Shown here piece after piece: positions 4,893 to 54,160 of a stretch of 62,191 nucleotides of DNA. The notes under the pieces are model-generated. The model was not told the DNA's origin, made no database searches, and saw only the letters and a program-made list of their open reading frames with translations. Within the stretch, counting starts at the first letter, position 1. Each line of letters opens with the position of its first letter. Source of the stretch: Desulfovibrionaceae bacterium (GTDB taxonomy: Bacteria > Desulfobacterota > Desulfovibrionia > Desulfovibrionales > Desulfovibrionaceae). The position numbers were made by a program, and so were the translations under genes. Where the stretch lies: contig JACCQI010000019.1 of assembly GCA_015709315.1 (NCBI GenBank), positions 1-62,191 on the forward strand, given 5' to 3'.

Positions 4893-4899
4893 GGCGGGT

Positions 4900-5505
4900 C
4901 TAGAGGCCCAGTTCCTCGGCCAGGCGCTCGGCCTGCCGGAGGTCGTCCGGGGCGTTGACGTTGAAGAAGGACACCTGGCCCGGGTCGCCGGGCAAAAGCC
5001 GGGCAATGGGCACTTCCTTGACCGCCACGTGCTCGAAGAAACGGATGATCTTGAAGTCCTCCCGTTGGAGCTGGGCCTCGATGAACGGCAGGCAGCGCTT
5101 GGAATAGATCGCGCACAGCGGCTCGCGGTAGCCGTCTTCCTTCAGGGGGATGATCACGTCGAACTCGGGCGCGGCCTCGGCCAGGAGGCGCTCCACCAGG
5201 CCGGGTTGCAGGAACGGGGCGTCGCAGGCCGCGAAAAAGCCGTGGGAGGCGCGGATGGCGCACAGCCCGGCGTGGATGCCCGTCAGGGAGGAGCGCGCCG
5301 CGAAACGGTCCTCGGCCACGGGCAGGTTGTAGATCGCAAAGTCTTCGGCCTCGCGGGCCGAGATGACGATCTCGGAGAACAGGGGGCGGTACACGGCCAG
5401 CAGCCGGTCCAGAATGGTCCGGTCGCCGATGCCCAGAAAAGCCTTTTTCACGTGGCCCATGCGGGTGCCGAGTCCCCCGGCCAGTATGACGCCTGCGATG
5501 TCCAT
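4900..5505 (-). CDS. mobA: Molybdenum cofactor guanylyltransferase-like protein
   Basis: The 201-residue cytosolic protein has the nucleotidyltransferase signature ILAGGLGTRMG (7-17) and a FAACDAPFL metal-binding strand near residue 94, as in MobA, which attaches GMP to molybdopterin. The usual DKA after RMG is replaced by HVKKA, and the C-terminus has the FFNVNAPDDL segment typical of MobA. It is the first gene of the operon and diverges from the alpha/beta-hydrolase gene. Molybdopterin-guanine enzymes such as formate dehydrogenase are expected in this lineage. Confidence 0.85.
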   Translation of the reverse strand: MDIAGVILAGGLGTRMGHVKKAFLGIGDRTILDRLLAVYRPLFSEIVISAREAEDFAIYNLPVAEDRFAARSSLTGIHAGLCAIRASHGFFAACDAPFLQPGLVERLLAEAAPEFDVIIPLKEDGYREPLCAIYSKRCLPFIEAQLQREDFKIIRFFEHVAVKEVPIARLLPGDPGQVSFFNVNAPDDLRQAERLAEELGL

Positions 5506-5578: not shown

Positions 5579-6433
5579 ATGTGGACGGCAATGAACATCG
5601 CGGGCTTTTTGGCCCTGGCCTATGTGGTCCTCGCGGCCTGGATGTACTTCTCCCAGGGCAGCCTGGTCTATTATCCCAGGCCGGAACTGGCGGCAACGCC
5701 CAACGACGCCGGACTGGCCTACGAGGACGTGTTTCTGGCCTCCGGCCCGGAGACCACCATCCACGCCTGGTGGCTGCCGCACGAGCGGTCCCGGCTCACG
5801 CTGCTCTTTTCCCACGGCAACGGCGGCAACATCTCGCACAGGCTGGATACCCTGCGCATCTTCCACAACCTGGGGCTGTCGGTGCTGATCTACGACTACG
5901 CGGGATACGGCCGGAGCAACGGCAGTCCGAGCGAGGAGGCGACCAGGGCGGACGCACGGGCCGCCTGGCGCTGGCTGACCAGGGAGCGCGGCATCAACCC
6001 CGGCTCCATCGTCCTGTTCGGCCGCAGCCTGGGCGGGGCCGTGGCCGCCGAGCTGGCCGCGCACGTCCACGGCCGGGGCGAGCCGCCCGCCGGACTGATC
6101 CTGGAATCCACCTTCACCTCCATCCCGGACATGGGCGCGCTCCTGTATCCGTGGCTGCCGGTGCGGCTTTTGTCCCGCTTCAACTACGACAGCCGGGAGG
6201 CCCTGCGGTCCGTGGCCTTGCCCGCCCTGTTCCTGCACAGCCGGGATGACGACATCATCCCGTTCGAGTTGGGCAGGCGGCTCCACGACGCCTATGCCGG
6301 ACCCAAGACCTTCCAGGAGCTGCGGGGCGACCACAACACCGGCTTCCTCCACACCGGGCAGGCCTACGCGGACGGCCTAAACCGCTTCCTTTCCGGGCTT
6401 GAGCCGCCCGTACACGGGGGAGCCGTGCAATGA
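5579..6433 (+). CDS. Membrane-anchored alpha/beta-hydrolase
   Basis: The 284-residue protein starts with one hydrophobic segment (residues 5-25) and then an alpha/beta-hydrolase domain. It has the oxyanion strand FSHGNGGN, a nucleophile elbow GRSLGG, an acid in LHSRDDDIIP, and a late HNTG histidine, giving a plausible Ser-Asp-His triad. The pattern matches the BEM46/YfhR-like family of membrane-tethered hydrolases with unknown substrates. The first ATG after the divergent promoter region was used; ATG 5591 and an upstream ATG at 5534 are alternatives without good ribosome sites. It overlaps the next gene by four bases. Confidence 0.82.
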   Translation: MWTAMNIAGFLALAYVVLAAWMYFSQGSLVYYPRPELAATPNDAGLAYEDVFLASGPETTIHAWWLPHERSRLTLLFSHGNGGNISHRLDTLRIFHNLGLSVLIYDYAGYGRSNGSPSEEATRADARAAWRWLTRERGINPGSIVLFGRSLGGAVAAELAAHVHGRGEPPAGLILESTFTSIPDMGALLYPWLPVRLLSRFNYDSREALRSVALPALFLHSRDDDIIPFELGRRLHDAYAGPKTFQELRGDHNTGFLHTGQAYADGLNRFLSGLEPPVHGGAVQ

Positions 6434-50893: not shown

Positions 50894-51058
50894 ATGAGCA
50901 TGGAAAACGATACCCGTCTGGCCATGTTGCATTTGCAAAACGACGCAAGGGAAACCGGCGTCCGTTCGCCCCGTCGCCGCAACTTCCGGCGTTACCGCCG
51001 CGTTGCCGGTGCGACCCTGACCGCCTTTGCCCTGACCCTGTTCACCCGGGGCGCATAA
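50894..51058 (+). CDS. 54-residue membrane micro-protein, LysR-linked (right)
   Basis: MSMENDTRLAMLHLQNDARE... is a 54-codon frame with AAGGAG 7 bp before the ATG and a perfect 17-bp-stem terminator after it. A strongly basic stretch (RSPRRRNFRRYRR, about 24-36) precedes one hydrophobic helix (VAGATLTAFALTLF). It is head to head with the right LysR gene. The function is unknown; single-helix micro-proteins of this type often modulate a larger membrane partner. Confidence 0.7.
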   Translation: MSMENDTRLAMLHLQNDARETGVRSPRRRNFRRYRRVAGATLTAFALTLFTRGA

Positions 51059-51094
51059 ATTTCCGGGCCGCACGGCCCCATTACCAAGCGGGTT

Positions 51095-51152
51095 AGAGCC
51101 GCTCTTGTCTGGGGATTCTCATCCTTTCCTCTCAGACAAGAGCGGCTCTTTT
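51095..51152 (+). terminator. Strong terminator after the micro-protein gene
   Basis: A perfect 17-bp stem (51095-51111 with 51133-51149) is followed by TTTATTG. It closes the 54-residue protein transcript. Confidence 0.85.
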
Positions 51153-51164
51153 ATTGTGGTCCGG

Positions 51165-51452
51165 CGGCTTGCGATAGCGGGCCGCCTGCACAATTTCCGA
51201 GGGTGACTTTCATCCTCACGTACCGGGTGTACGCTGCGGTGAAAGACTCCCTCGGCGCCCATGCGGGCATTAGATCTTGTACGGCTCGAAGACTCGCCTA
51301 CAATTCACTATAAATGCACATGCGACCCACTCTCCCAAGCCTCGCATCGTGCGTAGGGAAAGGGGAGGAGCTTTGGGCGGGACGTGTGGCTGGGGGGCCC
51401 GCTGTCAGGTGCCTGAAGGTACCTGAATCGCTTGTGGCGGCGTTGTGGGGAG
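51165..51452. ncRNA. Duplicated structured element, copy 1
   Basis: The element shares with copy 2 an identical 28-nt 5' block (51165-51192), an identical 33-nt 3' block (51312-51344), CCCGCTGTC (51398-51406) and a tail around GAATCGCT and TGTGGGGAG. The two blocks can pair with each other over 26 positions (19 matched). Between them is a 7-bp-closed imperfect hairpin (51197-51255) with an internal TCCTC/TGCGG motif, and later an 8-bp hairpin (51406-51425). Strand is unclear. It is bordered by terminators on both sides, so if transcribed it is a separate RNA. Confidence 0.6.
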
Positions 51453-51570
51453 ACTGCGTGGAGGTGTCGATGCGCGGGTAAGGGCGCGCCGATTGATCTT
51501 TTGAGTGGGATTGGAGAACGTGGGCGGCATGCGGTTCAACCGCCGCCCGGTGGACGGGATGGGGAAAAAA

Positions 51571-51598
51571 AGGCTCCGGCTAATTGCCGGAGCCTTTT
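51571..51598 (-). terminator. Terminator of rubrerythrin gene
   Basis: AGGCTCCGGC (51571-51580) pairs with GCCGGAGCCT (51586-51595). On the minus strand seven U residues follow, 18 bp past the rubrerythrin stop; the plus side also has TTTT. Confidence 0.9.
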
Positions 51599-51613
51599 GC
51601 ATGCCGGGGTTGG

Positions 51614-52111
51614 CTAGTCGACCTTGTGGTAGGCCTTGGCGGCCGCGCCGCAGATGGGGCACTTATCGGTAGGTTTGCCATTGTGGGTGTGGCCGCAGAC
51701 CGAGCAGATGTAGAATTCGGCGTCGGCAAAGACGTCCCCGTCCGCTTCGAGCGCCTTGGTGTAGAGGTCGGCGTGGACCTTTTCCGCCTCGTTGGCGAAA
51801 CCGAAATAGCGCAGGGTGGCGTTCTCGCCCTCGGCCTTGGCGTCCTCCATCATCTCGGGATACATCTTCTCGAATTCGTAGGTCTCGCCGGAGATGGCGG
51901 CCTTGAGGTTCTCTTCGGTGGAGCCGATGCCCTTCATCAGCCGCAGGTGGGCGTGGGCGTGGATGGTCTCGGCGGCGGCAGCGGCACGGAACAGCTTGGC
52001 TGCGCCGGGCTTGCCTTCCTTCTCGGCCTGCTCGGCAAAGGCGAGATACTTGCGGTTGGCCTGGGACTCTCCGGCAAAGGCGGCTTTCAGGTTCTCCAAC
52101 GTCTTGGTCAT
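51614..52111 (-). CDS. rbr: Rubrerythrin
   Basis: The 165-residue protein has an N-terminal ferritin-like di-iron four-helix domain (NLKAAFAGESQANRKYLAFAEQAEKEG and AISGETYEFEKMYPEM, with the paired E-x-x-H type ligands) and a C-terminal rubredoxin knuckle CSVCG...CPICG (residues about 136-154). It reduces hydrogen peroxide to water in anaerobes. GGAGAAACGC precedes the ATG. It is a single-gene unit with its own terminator. Confidence 0.95.
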   Translation of the reverse strand: MTKTLENLKAAFAGESQANRKYLAFAEQAEKEGKPGAAKLFRAAAAAETIHAHAHLRLMKGIGSTEENLKAAISGETYEFEKMYPEMMEDAKAEGENATLRYFGFANEAEKVHADLYTKALEADGDVFADAEFYICSVCGHTHNGKPTDKCPICGAAAKAYHKVD

Positions 52112-52170
52112 GATGCGTTTCTCCTTGATTGATGAAAGTTTCGGTCAAAAAGACCGTGATATTCAGTGAA

Positions 52171-52179
52171 TGTGGATAA
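52171..52179 (-). promoter_or_regulatory. Single perfect DnaA box
   Basis: TGTGGATAA is the exact complement of TTATCCACA. It lies 60 bp upstream of the rubrerythrin start, beside an AT-rich stretch. It is isolated, so it may be chance or a DnaA titration/regulatory site. Confidence 0.35.
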
Positions 52180-52195
52180 ACTAGTAATGGTTCCT

Positions 52196-52218
52196 AAAAA
52201 GGAAATCAAGTCCTTTTT
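52196..52218 (-). terminator. A/T-rich hairpin after ftsX
   Basis: AAAAAGGA (52196-52203) pairs perfectly with TCCTTTTT (52211-52218). On the minus strand it lies 30 bp past the ftsX stop and ends in a U-run. The stem is GC-poor, so it may be weak. Confidence 0.5.
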
Positions 52219-52248
52219 CATAATAATCGGGGACCGGCCGCACGGGCG

Positions 52249-53124
52249 CTATTTGACGGCGACCCAGCTGGACAGGACCGACACCAGGGTCACGGCTCCG
52301 GCGAGCGCAAGAAGGTATTCCGGGGGCAGGAAGCGGATTTCCAGCAGGAAGGGCGGGAAGTTCAGCGCCTCGGCGATGAAGGAGTGGACAATGGCCAGCA
52401 GGCCGATGCCCAGGCCGGAGCCGAGCACGCCCTGGACGAACCCGCCGGTCAAAAGCGGCCAGCGGATGTAGCCGGGACGGGCACCCACCAGGGAGAGGAT
52501 TTCCACCTCGTCCAGACGGGTCATGAGCGAAAGCTTGATGGTGTTGTGGACCACCAGGGACACGATGAGCGCCAGAAAGCCGAGCACGGGCCAGATGACC
52601 ATGTGCGAGATGGTCCTCCAGCTCTGGGCCAGGTCCGCCTGGAACGGGGTGTAGTGGACCTTGTCCACGCCGGGCAGGGACTTGATCTGGGTGAGCAGTC
52701 CGGCGGCCCAGCCCTGGTCTTGGGCCTCGGGCGGCACGTGGAACGAGACCAGCCCGGAATAGGGCAGGGGATTGTTGTCCGCCAGCCAGGAGAAATCGCC
52801 GGTCTCGCCCAGGGTGGAGGCCAGTTCGGTCAGAGCGTTGTCCGGGGTGAAGGTCTTGAAATCCTTGAGGTGTTCCATGGCCCGGATGGTGTCCCAGTCC
52901 TTGACCACGGTTTCCGCGTCCGCATCGGTCTTCCAGTAGACCTGGAACTCCACCTGGCCGCGCGACTTGAGCAGCTCGATGTTGACCGTGTGCAGGCCGA
53001 GCAGGATCAGGCCGGTGAGCAAGGTGACCATGGCCACGGCCACCAGGGTGAGCAACTGGGCAAAGGGGTGCAGCCGCAGGTCCGCCACGCCCCGTGCCGA
53101 CAGCCTGAGGAACTGGCCGATCAT
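52249..53124 (-). CDS. ftsX: Cell division protein FtsX
   Basis: The 291-residue membrane protein has four transmembrane helices: one near 25-45, then three in the C-terminal FtsX domain (about 170-290), with an extracytoplasmic loop between. It contains SLVVHNTIKLSLMTRLDEVEILSLVGARPGYIRWPLL, typical of FtsX. With FtsE it transmits ATP hydrolysis to activate periplasmic murein hydrolases at division. It overlaps ftsE by four bases (ATGA). Confidence 0.92.
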   Translation of the reverse strand: MIGQFLRLSARGVADLRLHPFAQLLTLVAVAMVTLLTGLILLGLHTVNIELLKSRGQVEFQVYWKTDADAETVVKDWDTIRAMEHLKDFKTFTPDNALTELASTLGETGDFSWLADNNPLPYSGLVSFHVPPEAQDQGWAAGLLTQIKSLPGVDKVHYTPFQADLAQSWRTISHMVIWPVLGFLALIVSLVVHNTIKLSLMTRLDEVEILSLVGARPGYIRWPLLTGGFVQGVLGSGLGIGLLAIVHSFIAEALNFPPFLLEIRFLPPEYLLALAGAVTLVSVLSSWVAVK

Positions 53125-53843
53125 AACCCCACCTCGCCGAGGCTTGCGGGTTCCTCTTTCTCTGGTTCGGGTTCCGCGCCCGAAGCCTCGTCCACGATGC
53201 GGCCGTCCTGCAAATGCAGGATGCGCGCGCCCGGCACGCACTCCAACACCTCTTTCGAGTGGGTGGCCATGATCACGGACGTGCCGTAGGTGTGGAATTG
53301 CTGGAAGATTTCCATGAGATGCATGGTCAGGTCCACGTCCAGGTTGCCTGTGGGCTCGTCCGCCAGGATCAGCTCCGGGTTGGCGACCATGGACCGGGCG
53401 ATGGCCACCCGCTGCTGTTCGCCGCCGGACAGCCGTTCGCAAATGGAATAGGACTTGGTTTCCAGGCCCATGGCCCGGATGATGGCCCGCACGCGCCGCT
53501 CCAGGTGCTGTCGGGGCATGCCGCGCACCTCAAGTGCCATGGCCACGTTGTCGAAGACCGTCCGGTCGGACAGTATCTTGAAATCCTGGAAAACCACCCC
53601 GACCTTGCGTCGAAGCTGCGGGATGTCCCGCTTCCTGAGGTTGTTGAGCTGGTATCCGGCCACCGAGGCCCGGCCCCGCGTGACCGGCAGCGCCCCGTAG
53701 AGCAGCCGCAGCAGCGTGGTTTTGCCCGCCCCCGAGTGCCCGGTCAGGAACAGGAACTCTCCCTTTTTCAGCGAAAACGAAACATCCTTCAGCGCCCAGT
53801 AGGTCCCGAAATTATAGGAGAGTCGCTCAACAGTTACCATCAT
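53121..53843 (-). CDS. ftsE: Cell division ATP-binding protein FtsE
   Basis: The 240-residue ATPase has Walker [10 protein letters not shown] (about 34-42), a Q-loop in VFQDFKIL, signature [15 protein letters not shown], Walker [14 protein letters not shown] and a switch His. Its length and coupling to ftsX identify FtsE and not a general exporter. ATG 53843 and 53840 are both possible; the frame extends back to a TTG. The tail beyond residue 215 is acidic and Pro/Glu-rich. Confidence 0.93.
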
Positions 53844-53911
53844 GCCCGCCAATGTACCTGTAGCTTATGATTATAGCAAGGAGGGGTGAACGCGACGGCG
53901 GTGGGGCGCGT

Positions 53912-54160
53912 CGGCTTGCGATAGCGGGCCGCCTGCACATTTTTCGGCCGATCCGCGTCCTCGTCGTATTGGGATACGACTGCGGGGCGGATTCGGCCGA
54001 GAAAATGCACATGCGACCCACTCTCCCAAGCCTCGGAGACGGCATTGGCGCTCGGGGGAAAAGGGTGGGGGGCGGTGGGATATTTGTTCGGGGCTGCGGG
54101 GGTGACCCGCTGTCGGGAGCCGGTGGCTCCCGAATCGCTGAGGGCGGCGGTGTGGGGAGG
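53912..54160. ncRNA. Duplicated structured element, copy 2
   Basis: This copy has the same 5' block (53912-53939), 3' block (54003-54035), CCCGCTGTC (54106-54114) and GAATCGCT/TGTGGGGAG tail as copy 1. Its central hairpin (53945-53999) and its 8-bp hairpin (54114-54132) differ in sequence from copy 1 but keep the pairing. The internal TCCTC/TGCGG motif is conserved. It lies between ftsE and gspN, 100 bp before the gspN stop. Confidence 0.6.

Follow-up and report, generated by a model that had tools for sequence, protein, structure and literature searches.

REPINs are doublets of REP sequences that form hairpins, and their spacers show compensatory changes (PMC3116915); REP-type arms carry a terminal tag, GTAG or CGTC, on one side (PMC3733652). 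Other described repeats are ERIC, which is 127 bp long, and IRU and other sequences that resemble miniature inverted-repeat transposable elements (MITEs; PMC2229807, PMC2267715), and the multicopy intergenic sequences of Geobacter, of which one family has the central palindrome GRCGTAGCGCTGCTACGCC (PMC2700814, PMC2996986). The repetitive hairpin elements (RHE) of mitochondria, which include double-hairpin elements and those of sponges, are read as invading DNA (PMC2800124). These accounts and the comparisons below draw on part of each source. Here we describe a hairpin-forming element with two copies in a stretch of DNA from a Desulfovibrionaceae bacterium (assembly GCA_015709315.1, contig JACCQI010000019.1, positions 1 to 62,191; this whole stretch of 62,191 nucleotides is the window). 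We favor, with moderate confidence, the view that it is a non-autonomous, hairpin-forming dispersed repeat that resembles REPIN and ERIC, with a core hairpin (HP1) and tails that differ by clade. Among the top-ranked literature results, no title or abstract opening names such a repeat for Pseudodesulfovibrio or Desulfovibrio; subscription papers and supplements lie mostly outside those results.

A sequence-only reading of the window had reported two copies of a non-coding element with identical blocks and covarying hairpins. Both copies are indeed present, with first blocks that start at 51165 and 53912 and share 28 identical nucleotides; so are the identical 33-nt block, the remaining shared stretches, and both stems of the small distal hairpin (HP2). 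The two outer blocks had been predicted to pair, and the minus-strand fold of copy 2 unites them into one long hairpin (z = -6.77). Three features had been missed: a 56-nt insert in copy 1, the spread of the element across the genome, and the separability of HP1 and HP2. The origin of the shared block by chance is excluded, because 29 nt of the 33-nt block (with up to 3 mismatches) have two occurrences in the window but none in 100 shuffles of it. The parts of the two copies are as follows; we list HP1 on the minus strand, where G.U and G.A make up most of its mismatches.

53912..54035, minus strand: HP1 of copy 2, an imperfect hairpin of about 125 nt and the core of the element
53912..53939: outer arm 1 of HP1 in copy 2, 28 nt, the same in copy 1
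54003..54035: outer arm 2 of HP1 in copy 2, 33 nt, the same in copy 1
54036..54105: linker of copy 2, with 38 G and 9 C on the plus strand and thus C-rich on the minus strand
54106..54139: HP2 of copy 2, a small hairpin (CGGGAGCC/GGCTCCCG) between CCGCTGT and AATCGCT, both conserved
51165..51344, minus strand: HP1 of copy 1, whose 3' arm is broken by the 56-nt insert (61.4 bits)
51256..51311: insert module of copy 1, 56 nt, inside the 3' arm
51312..51344: outer arm 2 of HP1 in copy 1, the identical 33-nt block
51345..51397: linker of copy 1, with 29 G and 7 C on the plus strand
51398..51432: HP2 of copy 1, a hairpin (CAGGTGCC/GGTACCTG)
51095..51149, plus strand: terminator-like perfect 17-bp inverted repeat, directly upstream of copy 1 and outside the element

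The same reading had proposed a covariance-model search for relatives, and this search reveals a dispersed family: HP1 matches are found in 31 of the 36 genomes of the genus, including the genome that the window comes from (G000, "own genome" below, a draft assembly of 87 contigs). In the own genome, BLAST with copy 2 gave 34 matches, which we combined manually into 25 places: 24 have both arms (and three of these the insert), and one is truncated (C35). The covariance model (R1), trained on the minus strands of 21 full insert-free copies from the own genome, adds five weaker places (75, 59, 37, 34, and 30 bits). The richest genomes of the genus (G005, G007, G014, G006, and G030) have 60-88 matches, with both strands counted. 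With stricter filters, matches were found in 15 of 199 genomes and 3 of 44 genera in a sample of the family. No record in the phage or plasmid collections matches the element, so we rejected the idea that it is phage or plasmid cargo.

Evidence for the fold comes from pairing across the family. We fitted 75 HP1 matches (69 distinct, E up to 1e-20, from 66 chosen sources) to the model, leaving out insert-bearing and degenerate copies. Standard pairs fill 96.0% of the 2898 pair cells of the 69 distinct sequences, and 29 of the 42 pairs show two-sided changes; none of 500 shuffles reached the values for pairing or for covariation. If the partner is slid by 1-3 columns, then at most 51.3% are paired. 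The alignment leans towards the model, and the cells are not independent events, since copies exchange parts. Exchange of an inner cassette moves both arms together, which inflates the apparent covariation and explains part of it without selection. It does not explain the origin of new paired inner sequences or the persistence of specific mismatches.

These mismatches differ by strand. In a strand-neutral self-alignment of the 69 sequences (3986 positions), the minus strand has 366 G·T versus 52 A·C mismatches, 276 A·G versus 7 C·T, and 60 G·G versus 2 C·C. In the inner part of HP1 alone, G·T and A·C show no clear bias (43 versus 34), but A·G and C·T do (83 versus 5). Similarly, in 19 related hairpins with a AGGCTGTT base (described below), A·G and C·T stand at 157 to 4 and G·T and A·C at only 51 to 38; these are row sums, with each hairpin taken on the strand where a C follows the basal AGGCTGTT (or an equivalent of it). 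Given these counts, the outer and loop mismatches are strand-specific and conserved, and the inner stem turns over. The covariance model gives HP1 of copy 2 133.7 bits on the minus strand and 58.8 on the plus strand, a difference that is no evidence by itself as the model was built from minus strands. Folding energies are not one-sided: a 261-nt stretch with copy 2 has -142.6 kcal/mol on the plus strand (z = -4.80), where the G-rich linker joins the fold, and -120.7 kcal/mol on the minus strand, where the z-score is the -6.77 given above.

HP1 and HP2 are separable parts, and HP2 is a clade-specific tail. HP2 follows HP1 in 17 of the 25 own-genome copies by pattern and, by eye, also in C4 and C26; it was not seen behind the G009, G033, and G016 copies inspected. 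The pattern finds two HP2 units in C42_5776, C85, and C42_41824, and HP2 stems vary yet pair. In all 17 own-genome copies with a pattern-found HP2, G outnumbers C by two to one or more on the plus strand of the linker, and linkers range from 12 to 100 nt. Downstream of one copy in G007 (L219, 221690), HP2-like hairpins (CTGTTTGGGGG..CCCCCAAAG) stand in tandem. Another recurring stretch (GCGAAGCGGC..AAAAAGTTTGGAAGGGGGAGTCC..GGCCGCCGGAGGC), which is probably another repeat family, lies behind several copies, such as L227 (G007 386593) and a copy near 5776 of own-genome contig C42.

The insert of copy 1 is common to the C41 and C58 copies of the own genome and is partly present in single copies of G007, G016, and G030. 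We also note that a module of about 45 nt (GATCTTGTACGGCTCGAAGACTCGCCTACAATTCACT) appears as an insert in HP1-like hairpin stems in four genomes (window 51256-51311; L046, L018, L215, L147, and L086); in G016 (L147), the module and the outer arms read on opposite strands.

At longer distances, the inner part of the element turns over while the addresses mostly persist. G005 and G007 are 90.5% identical over 328 kb aligned, and at 15 addresses both have the element. By eye, the inner hairpin differs at five of the 15 (G007 4313, 58588, 158458, 183015, and 386593), and at two of those five, the apex is inverted in G005 (83115 and 383900, by a pattern test). At a sixth shared address (141690), the inner hairpin is partly different, and at one more of the 15, the inner part is lost. 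Beyond the 15 shared addresses, the G007 counterpart of G005 address 313905 has its inner part deleted, G007 273698 and G005 343970 lie in rearranged borders, and a weak 25-bit G005 match of another type has no scored counterpart. The tails lean by species, with CCTTG six times and CCTAT twice in G007 and CCTTG twice and CCTAT eight times in G005 (other tails are uncounted), which suggests that tails change in concert.

The FtsE-like gene next to window copy 2 gives a second comparison. Among the 30 genomes of the genus seen there, the own genome alone has HP1 in the 1500 nt upstream of ftsE by the covariance model. G014, whose FtsE is closest to that of the own genome (92% identity), has a similar right-hand neighbor and no HP1 at ftsE. 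Most other genomes have a different neighbor next to ftsE, and their sites are hence not strictly equivalent. By eye, G024 has a remnant related to the AGGCTGTT type at ftsE. A pattern with up to 3 mismatches had flagged HP1-like sequences at ftsE in several other genomes; we rejected these because the model finds no HP1 there.

At short distances, we see drift. G008 and G009 are about 1% apart, and all of the 15 elements compared (of 18 places in G009) are at shared addresses with no swap; a weak G008 match (1715907) has no clear counterpart in G009. The elements have 24/1877 differences (1.3%) and the flanks 131/9000 columns (1.5%, with gaps counted and genes included). Of the 24 differences, 13 make or break a pair (simulated 14.3, P = 0.35), 3 keep a pair (simulated 4.8), and 7 are at positions unpaired in both. 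Because these copies drift like their flanks, selection is visible on the family but not on each site. The sequence-only reading had inferred a selected structure from conserved loops and compensated stems, and this stands at the level of the family, given the pairing, the two-sided changes, and the strand-specific mismatches, but no constraint is visible per site.

We propose the following for a non-autonomous dispersed repeat of this kind. The folded minus strand, as single-stranded DNA (ssDNA) or RNA, would be recognized by the machinery for copying or exchange, and only copies that still fold would seed new copies or donate inner hairpins. A settled copy would then drift like its flanks until another member overwrites it, by ectopic gene conversion or unequal recombination. 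Copying and exchange would go through the folded structure. The family covaries, yet single addresses show no visible constraint over short periods; together, these results fit selection in the course of copying or exchange better than selection for a host function at each address.

Several observations weigh against this proposal. First, we have no engine for it: the own genome lacks a match to reverse transcriptase (RVT_1) and has only a fragment of Y1_Tnp (PF01797; 48 profile positions), and no search was made for transposases of other kinds or for recombinases. The presence of Y1_Tnp does not follow copy number, as the copy-rich genomes G006, G007, G014, G030, and G033 have no match to it. 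It is present in copy-rich G018 and G020, but also in G011, G013, G015, and G027, which have no HP1 match; the matches in G018, G020, G013, and G015 are longer, and G005, like the own genome, has a fragment. Second, a purely selfish repeat would not be expected to keep a fixed side with respect to genes (see below). Third, the test for constraint rests on only 24 differences, and G008 is probably a metagenome-assembled genome. Fourth, new insertions are rare, since two species with 9.5% divergence have most addresses in common. At two addresses, G033 has extra units (with spacings of 158 and 167 bp) between the gene end and the old element that G009 does not have; these would fit the proposal but could equally well be losses in G009 by recombination. 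Finally, no clean empty site with a target duplication was seen in the comparisons at ftsE, of G005 with G007, or of G009 with G033. The sequence-only reading had also suggested a structured mobile DNA element. The dispersed and exchanging copies are element-like, but no transposase was found with them, so this part is unproved.

How does this element compare to the known systems? Like REPINs, it is extragenic and multi-copy, with two conserved inverted arms around a variable pairing spacer (PMC3116915), and selection on the family during copying or exchange would be close to how REPINs are read in the part of that source available to us (PMC3116915). In contrast to REPINs, its arms have no GTAG or CGTC tag at the end (by inspection, the ends are CGGC.. 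and ..CTCG), it lies mostly at the 3' ends of genes, its inner modules swap and invert, and no intact REP-associated (RAYT/Y1) transposase was found in its own genome. We rejected a RAYT engine, as there is no intact gene in the own genome and no tracking with copy number. Given the lack of a RAYT and of a tag, the placement at gene ends, and the inner exchange, the element is better described as a new variant of REPIN/ERIC-like repeat than as a REPIN. Like ERIC, IRU, and the MITE-like repeats, as far as these are described in the portions of the papers we used, it is an intergenic unit of about 100-200 bp that folds into a long stem-loop, as the transcripts of those repeats do (PMC2229807, PMC2267715). 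It differs from ERIC, with which we compared it by description and not by sequence, in its strong covariation and its exchange at fixed addresses; no TA target duplication was seen for it, with no clean empty site among those compared. The Geobacter families are likewise multicopy, partly palindromic, intergenic, and deltaproteobacterial, and GRCGTAGCGCTGCTACGCC resembles the GCGTAC..GTACGC apex of our element (PMC2700814); here too the likeness is by description only, and the parts of those papers that we consulted describe no covariation or exchange (PMC2700814, PMC2996986). The mitochondrial RHE, judged by title only, are also repetitive and hairpin-forming, but they are organellar (PMC2800124).

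Relatives of HP1 occur farther away. In the genus that we call g7, R1 finds a related hairpin within rRNA operons, before the 5S gene. The G081 locus (L148) has it at 5019-5144, with the match to the large subunit rRNA ending at 4982 and 5S beginning at 5202; in the G175 locus (L138), it occupies 4893-5015, just before 5S. The letters are identical across three places in G175 and likewise across the two places compared in G081 (L139, L140, and L149 were compared by sequence only). Another copy in G175 has nearly the same apex (TCCTCACGTAC..GTACGCTTCGG) but a different base, AGGCTGTT..AACAGCCT. BLAST with this AGGCTGTT-type hairpin against a sample of the phylum gave matches in 19 of 297 genomes, which represent 16 of 199 genera, and two more places in the own genome are among them; many of these matches span one end only, and at most a few were scored per genome. 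Full hairpins of this type were read in the loci then fetched. Two copies in G009 (L249 and L253) combine an HP1-type base and apex with a AGGCTGTT-type middle stem, and from these mixtures we infer that the two types probably belong to one superfamily. An Rfam scan of seven AGGCTGTT-type loci gave no match for the hairpin; given this and the 16 genera with matches, many genomes probably carry unannotated copies.

The strongest rival is that the element is a cis-acting RNA at the 3' boundaries of genes, which we consider possible but doubtful. A minus-strand transcript, convergent or antisense, would carry HP2, the C-rich linker, and then HP1; the linker could be an entry site for Rho and HP1 a stable 3' end, so that transcription is halted before it reaches the rear of the upstream gene. 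On the plus strand, the element would act as a hairpin in the 3' untranslated region. The placement would fit this rival. Using gene calls from a codon-usage gene finder trained on the own genome, arm 1 faces the 3' end of the upstream gene in 20 of the 24 own-genome copies whose upstream gene is known. In the 11 convergent contexts among these, arm 1 faces a gene end in whichever orientation; the tandem contexts are 6 versus 4, and in one of the four (window copy 1), an unscored plus-strand open reading frame of 54 codons intervenes. Arm 1 is towards the gene's 3' end in 15/16 copies in G007 and 17/18 in G005 (a fraction of 0.53 is expected from intergenic lengths), with tandem contexts at 15 versus 2 for the two genomes, and it is within 20 nt of the stop codon in 10/16 and 12/18 (0.03 expected). 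The sets from G005 and G007 are mostly the same addresses and hence not independent. In the own genome, 9/24 copies are within 20 nt of the stop codon. The G.U and G.A mismatches of the minus strand, the G-rich plus strand of the linker in all 17 copies, and the hairpins before 5S in G081 and G175 also agree with an RNA.

Other results do not fit this rival. A terminator-like inverted repeat is a common kind of left neighbor, and by eye several other copies begin about 11-30 nt after the T-run of such a repeat; copies behind terminators are not expected in a plus-strand transcript. No short-term constraint on pairing was seen, 2 of the 75 apices are inverted, the length of the linker varies widely, and the rRNA operons of G175 and G081 have the plus strand as the transcribed one. 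The sequence-only reading had suggested a new RNA family. The element does lack an Rfam match: no family reaches its cut-off in the whole window or in nine loci scanned (rRNA matches only), and the matches of a further scan are all below family cut-offs, so we rejected a known Rfam family. But the copies drift like their flanks and the inner hairpin moves as a cassette.

Some placements deserve mention. Window copy 2 is an exception to the rule: both of its neighbors are minus-strand genes, and it sits upstream of the gene for the FtsE-like ABC ATPase, which adjoins FtsX, at a distance of 68 nt. Upstream of window copy 1, the 54-codon open reading frame (50894-51059), which has no Pfam match, is followed by the terminator-like repeat and then the copy. 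In contig C42 of the own genome (116618-117040), two HP1 copies face each other between convergent genes, each at its own gene's end, and G016 has a tandem of four HP1 units with a 173-nt period (L146, C1:2276410-2277051). We considered a TAG stop codon as the target and rejected it, as TAG is the commonest stop anyway in G005 and G007 (322 of 655 gene ends).

An ordinary DDE transposase, now lost or unassembled, could have moved the element as a MITE, with covariation as a by-product of palindrome correction and gene conversion. We think this is unlikely. Terminal inverted arms, many copies, and contigs that start or stop near some of them (C40, C41, C31, and C38) would fit. But among the 34 BLAST matches in the 87-contig draft, no pair of arms brackets a longer, gene-bearing insert; conserved mismatches in the stem have not been corrected away; and no target duplication was seen.

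Less probable still is a folded ssDNA recombination site similar to attC, at which a recombinase would act on one folded strand and swap inner cassettes. The strand asymmetry of the mismatches and the swapping and inversion between fixed outer arms would suit such a site, but the swapped pieces that we saw are gene-free, and there is no bias in orientation relative to the replication fork (26/46 in G014 and 23/42 in G006). The lack of fork bias also led us to reject a replication-strand model. The chromosome half distal to dnaA holds moderately more copies than the other (31/46 in G014, Kolmogorov-Smirnov P = 0.046; 29/42 in G006, P = 0.012, with the length of G006 taken as 4.0 Mb). Separately, each of the 12 genomes of the genus searched has a second Bac_DnaA match that is weaker than the first (for example, G014 C1:1930867 and G007 C1:557164); in G014 and G007, it is within about 20 kb of ftsE.

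A retron-like element copied by reverse transcriptase, in which HP2 presumably resembles the msr hairpin and HP1 the msd stem, is highly improbable and, with no candidate enzyme, rejected for the own genome: the order HP2-linker-HP1 on the minus strand would fit, but copy-rich G005, G014, G018, G030, and G033 also lack a reverse transcriptase match, the 10 of 36 genomes with one include both copy-rich G006, G007, and G020 and two without an HP1 match (G015 and G013), and HP2 was not seen behind the G009 and G033 copies inspected.

The favored dispersed repeat also has a bolder form, which we think is somewhat improbable: a self-propagating hairpin found across the phylum. The folded strand would be the unit of selection, and nested modules (base, middle, and apex) would be exchanged as matched pairs of arms. 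New units would be placed at the 3' ends of genes, possibly through an intermediate of RNA or ssDNA and by a host enzyme or an unrecognized one, in a genome with neither reverse transcriptase nor an intact RAYT-type transposase.

If the dispersed-repeat reading is correct, then this is a bacterial hairpin repeat that keeps its shape while its sequence turns over, and does so without the transposase proposed for REPINs. The combination of mostly stable addresses, inner exchange, and nearly neutral short-term drift makes it possible to distinguish selection for a host function from selection for spread. The same question concerns ERIC, REP, and the hairpin repeats of organelles.

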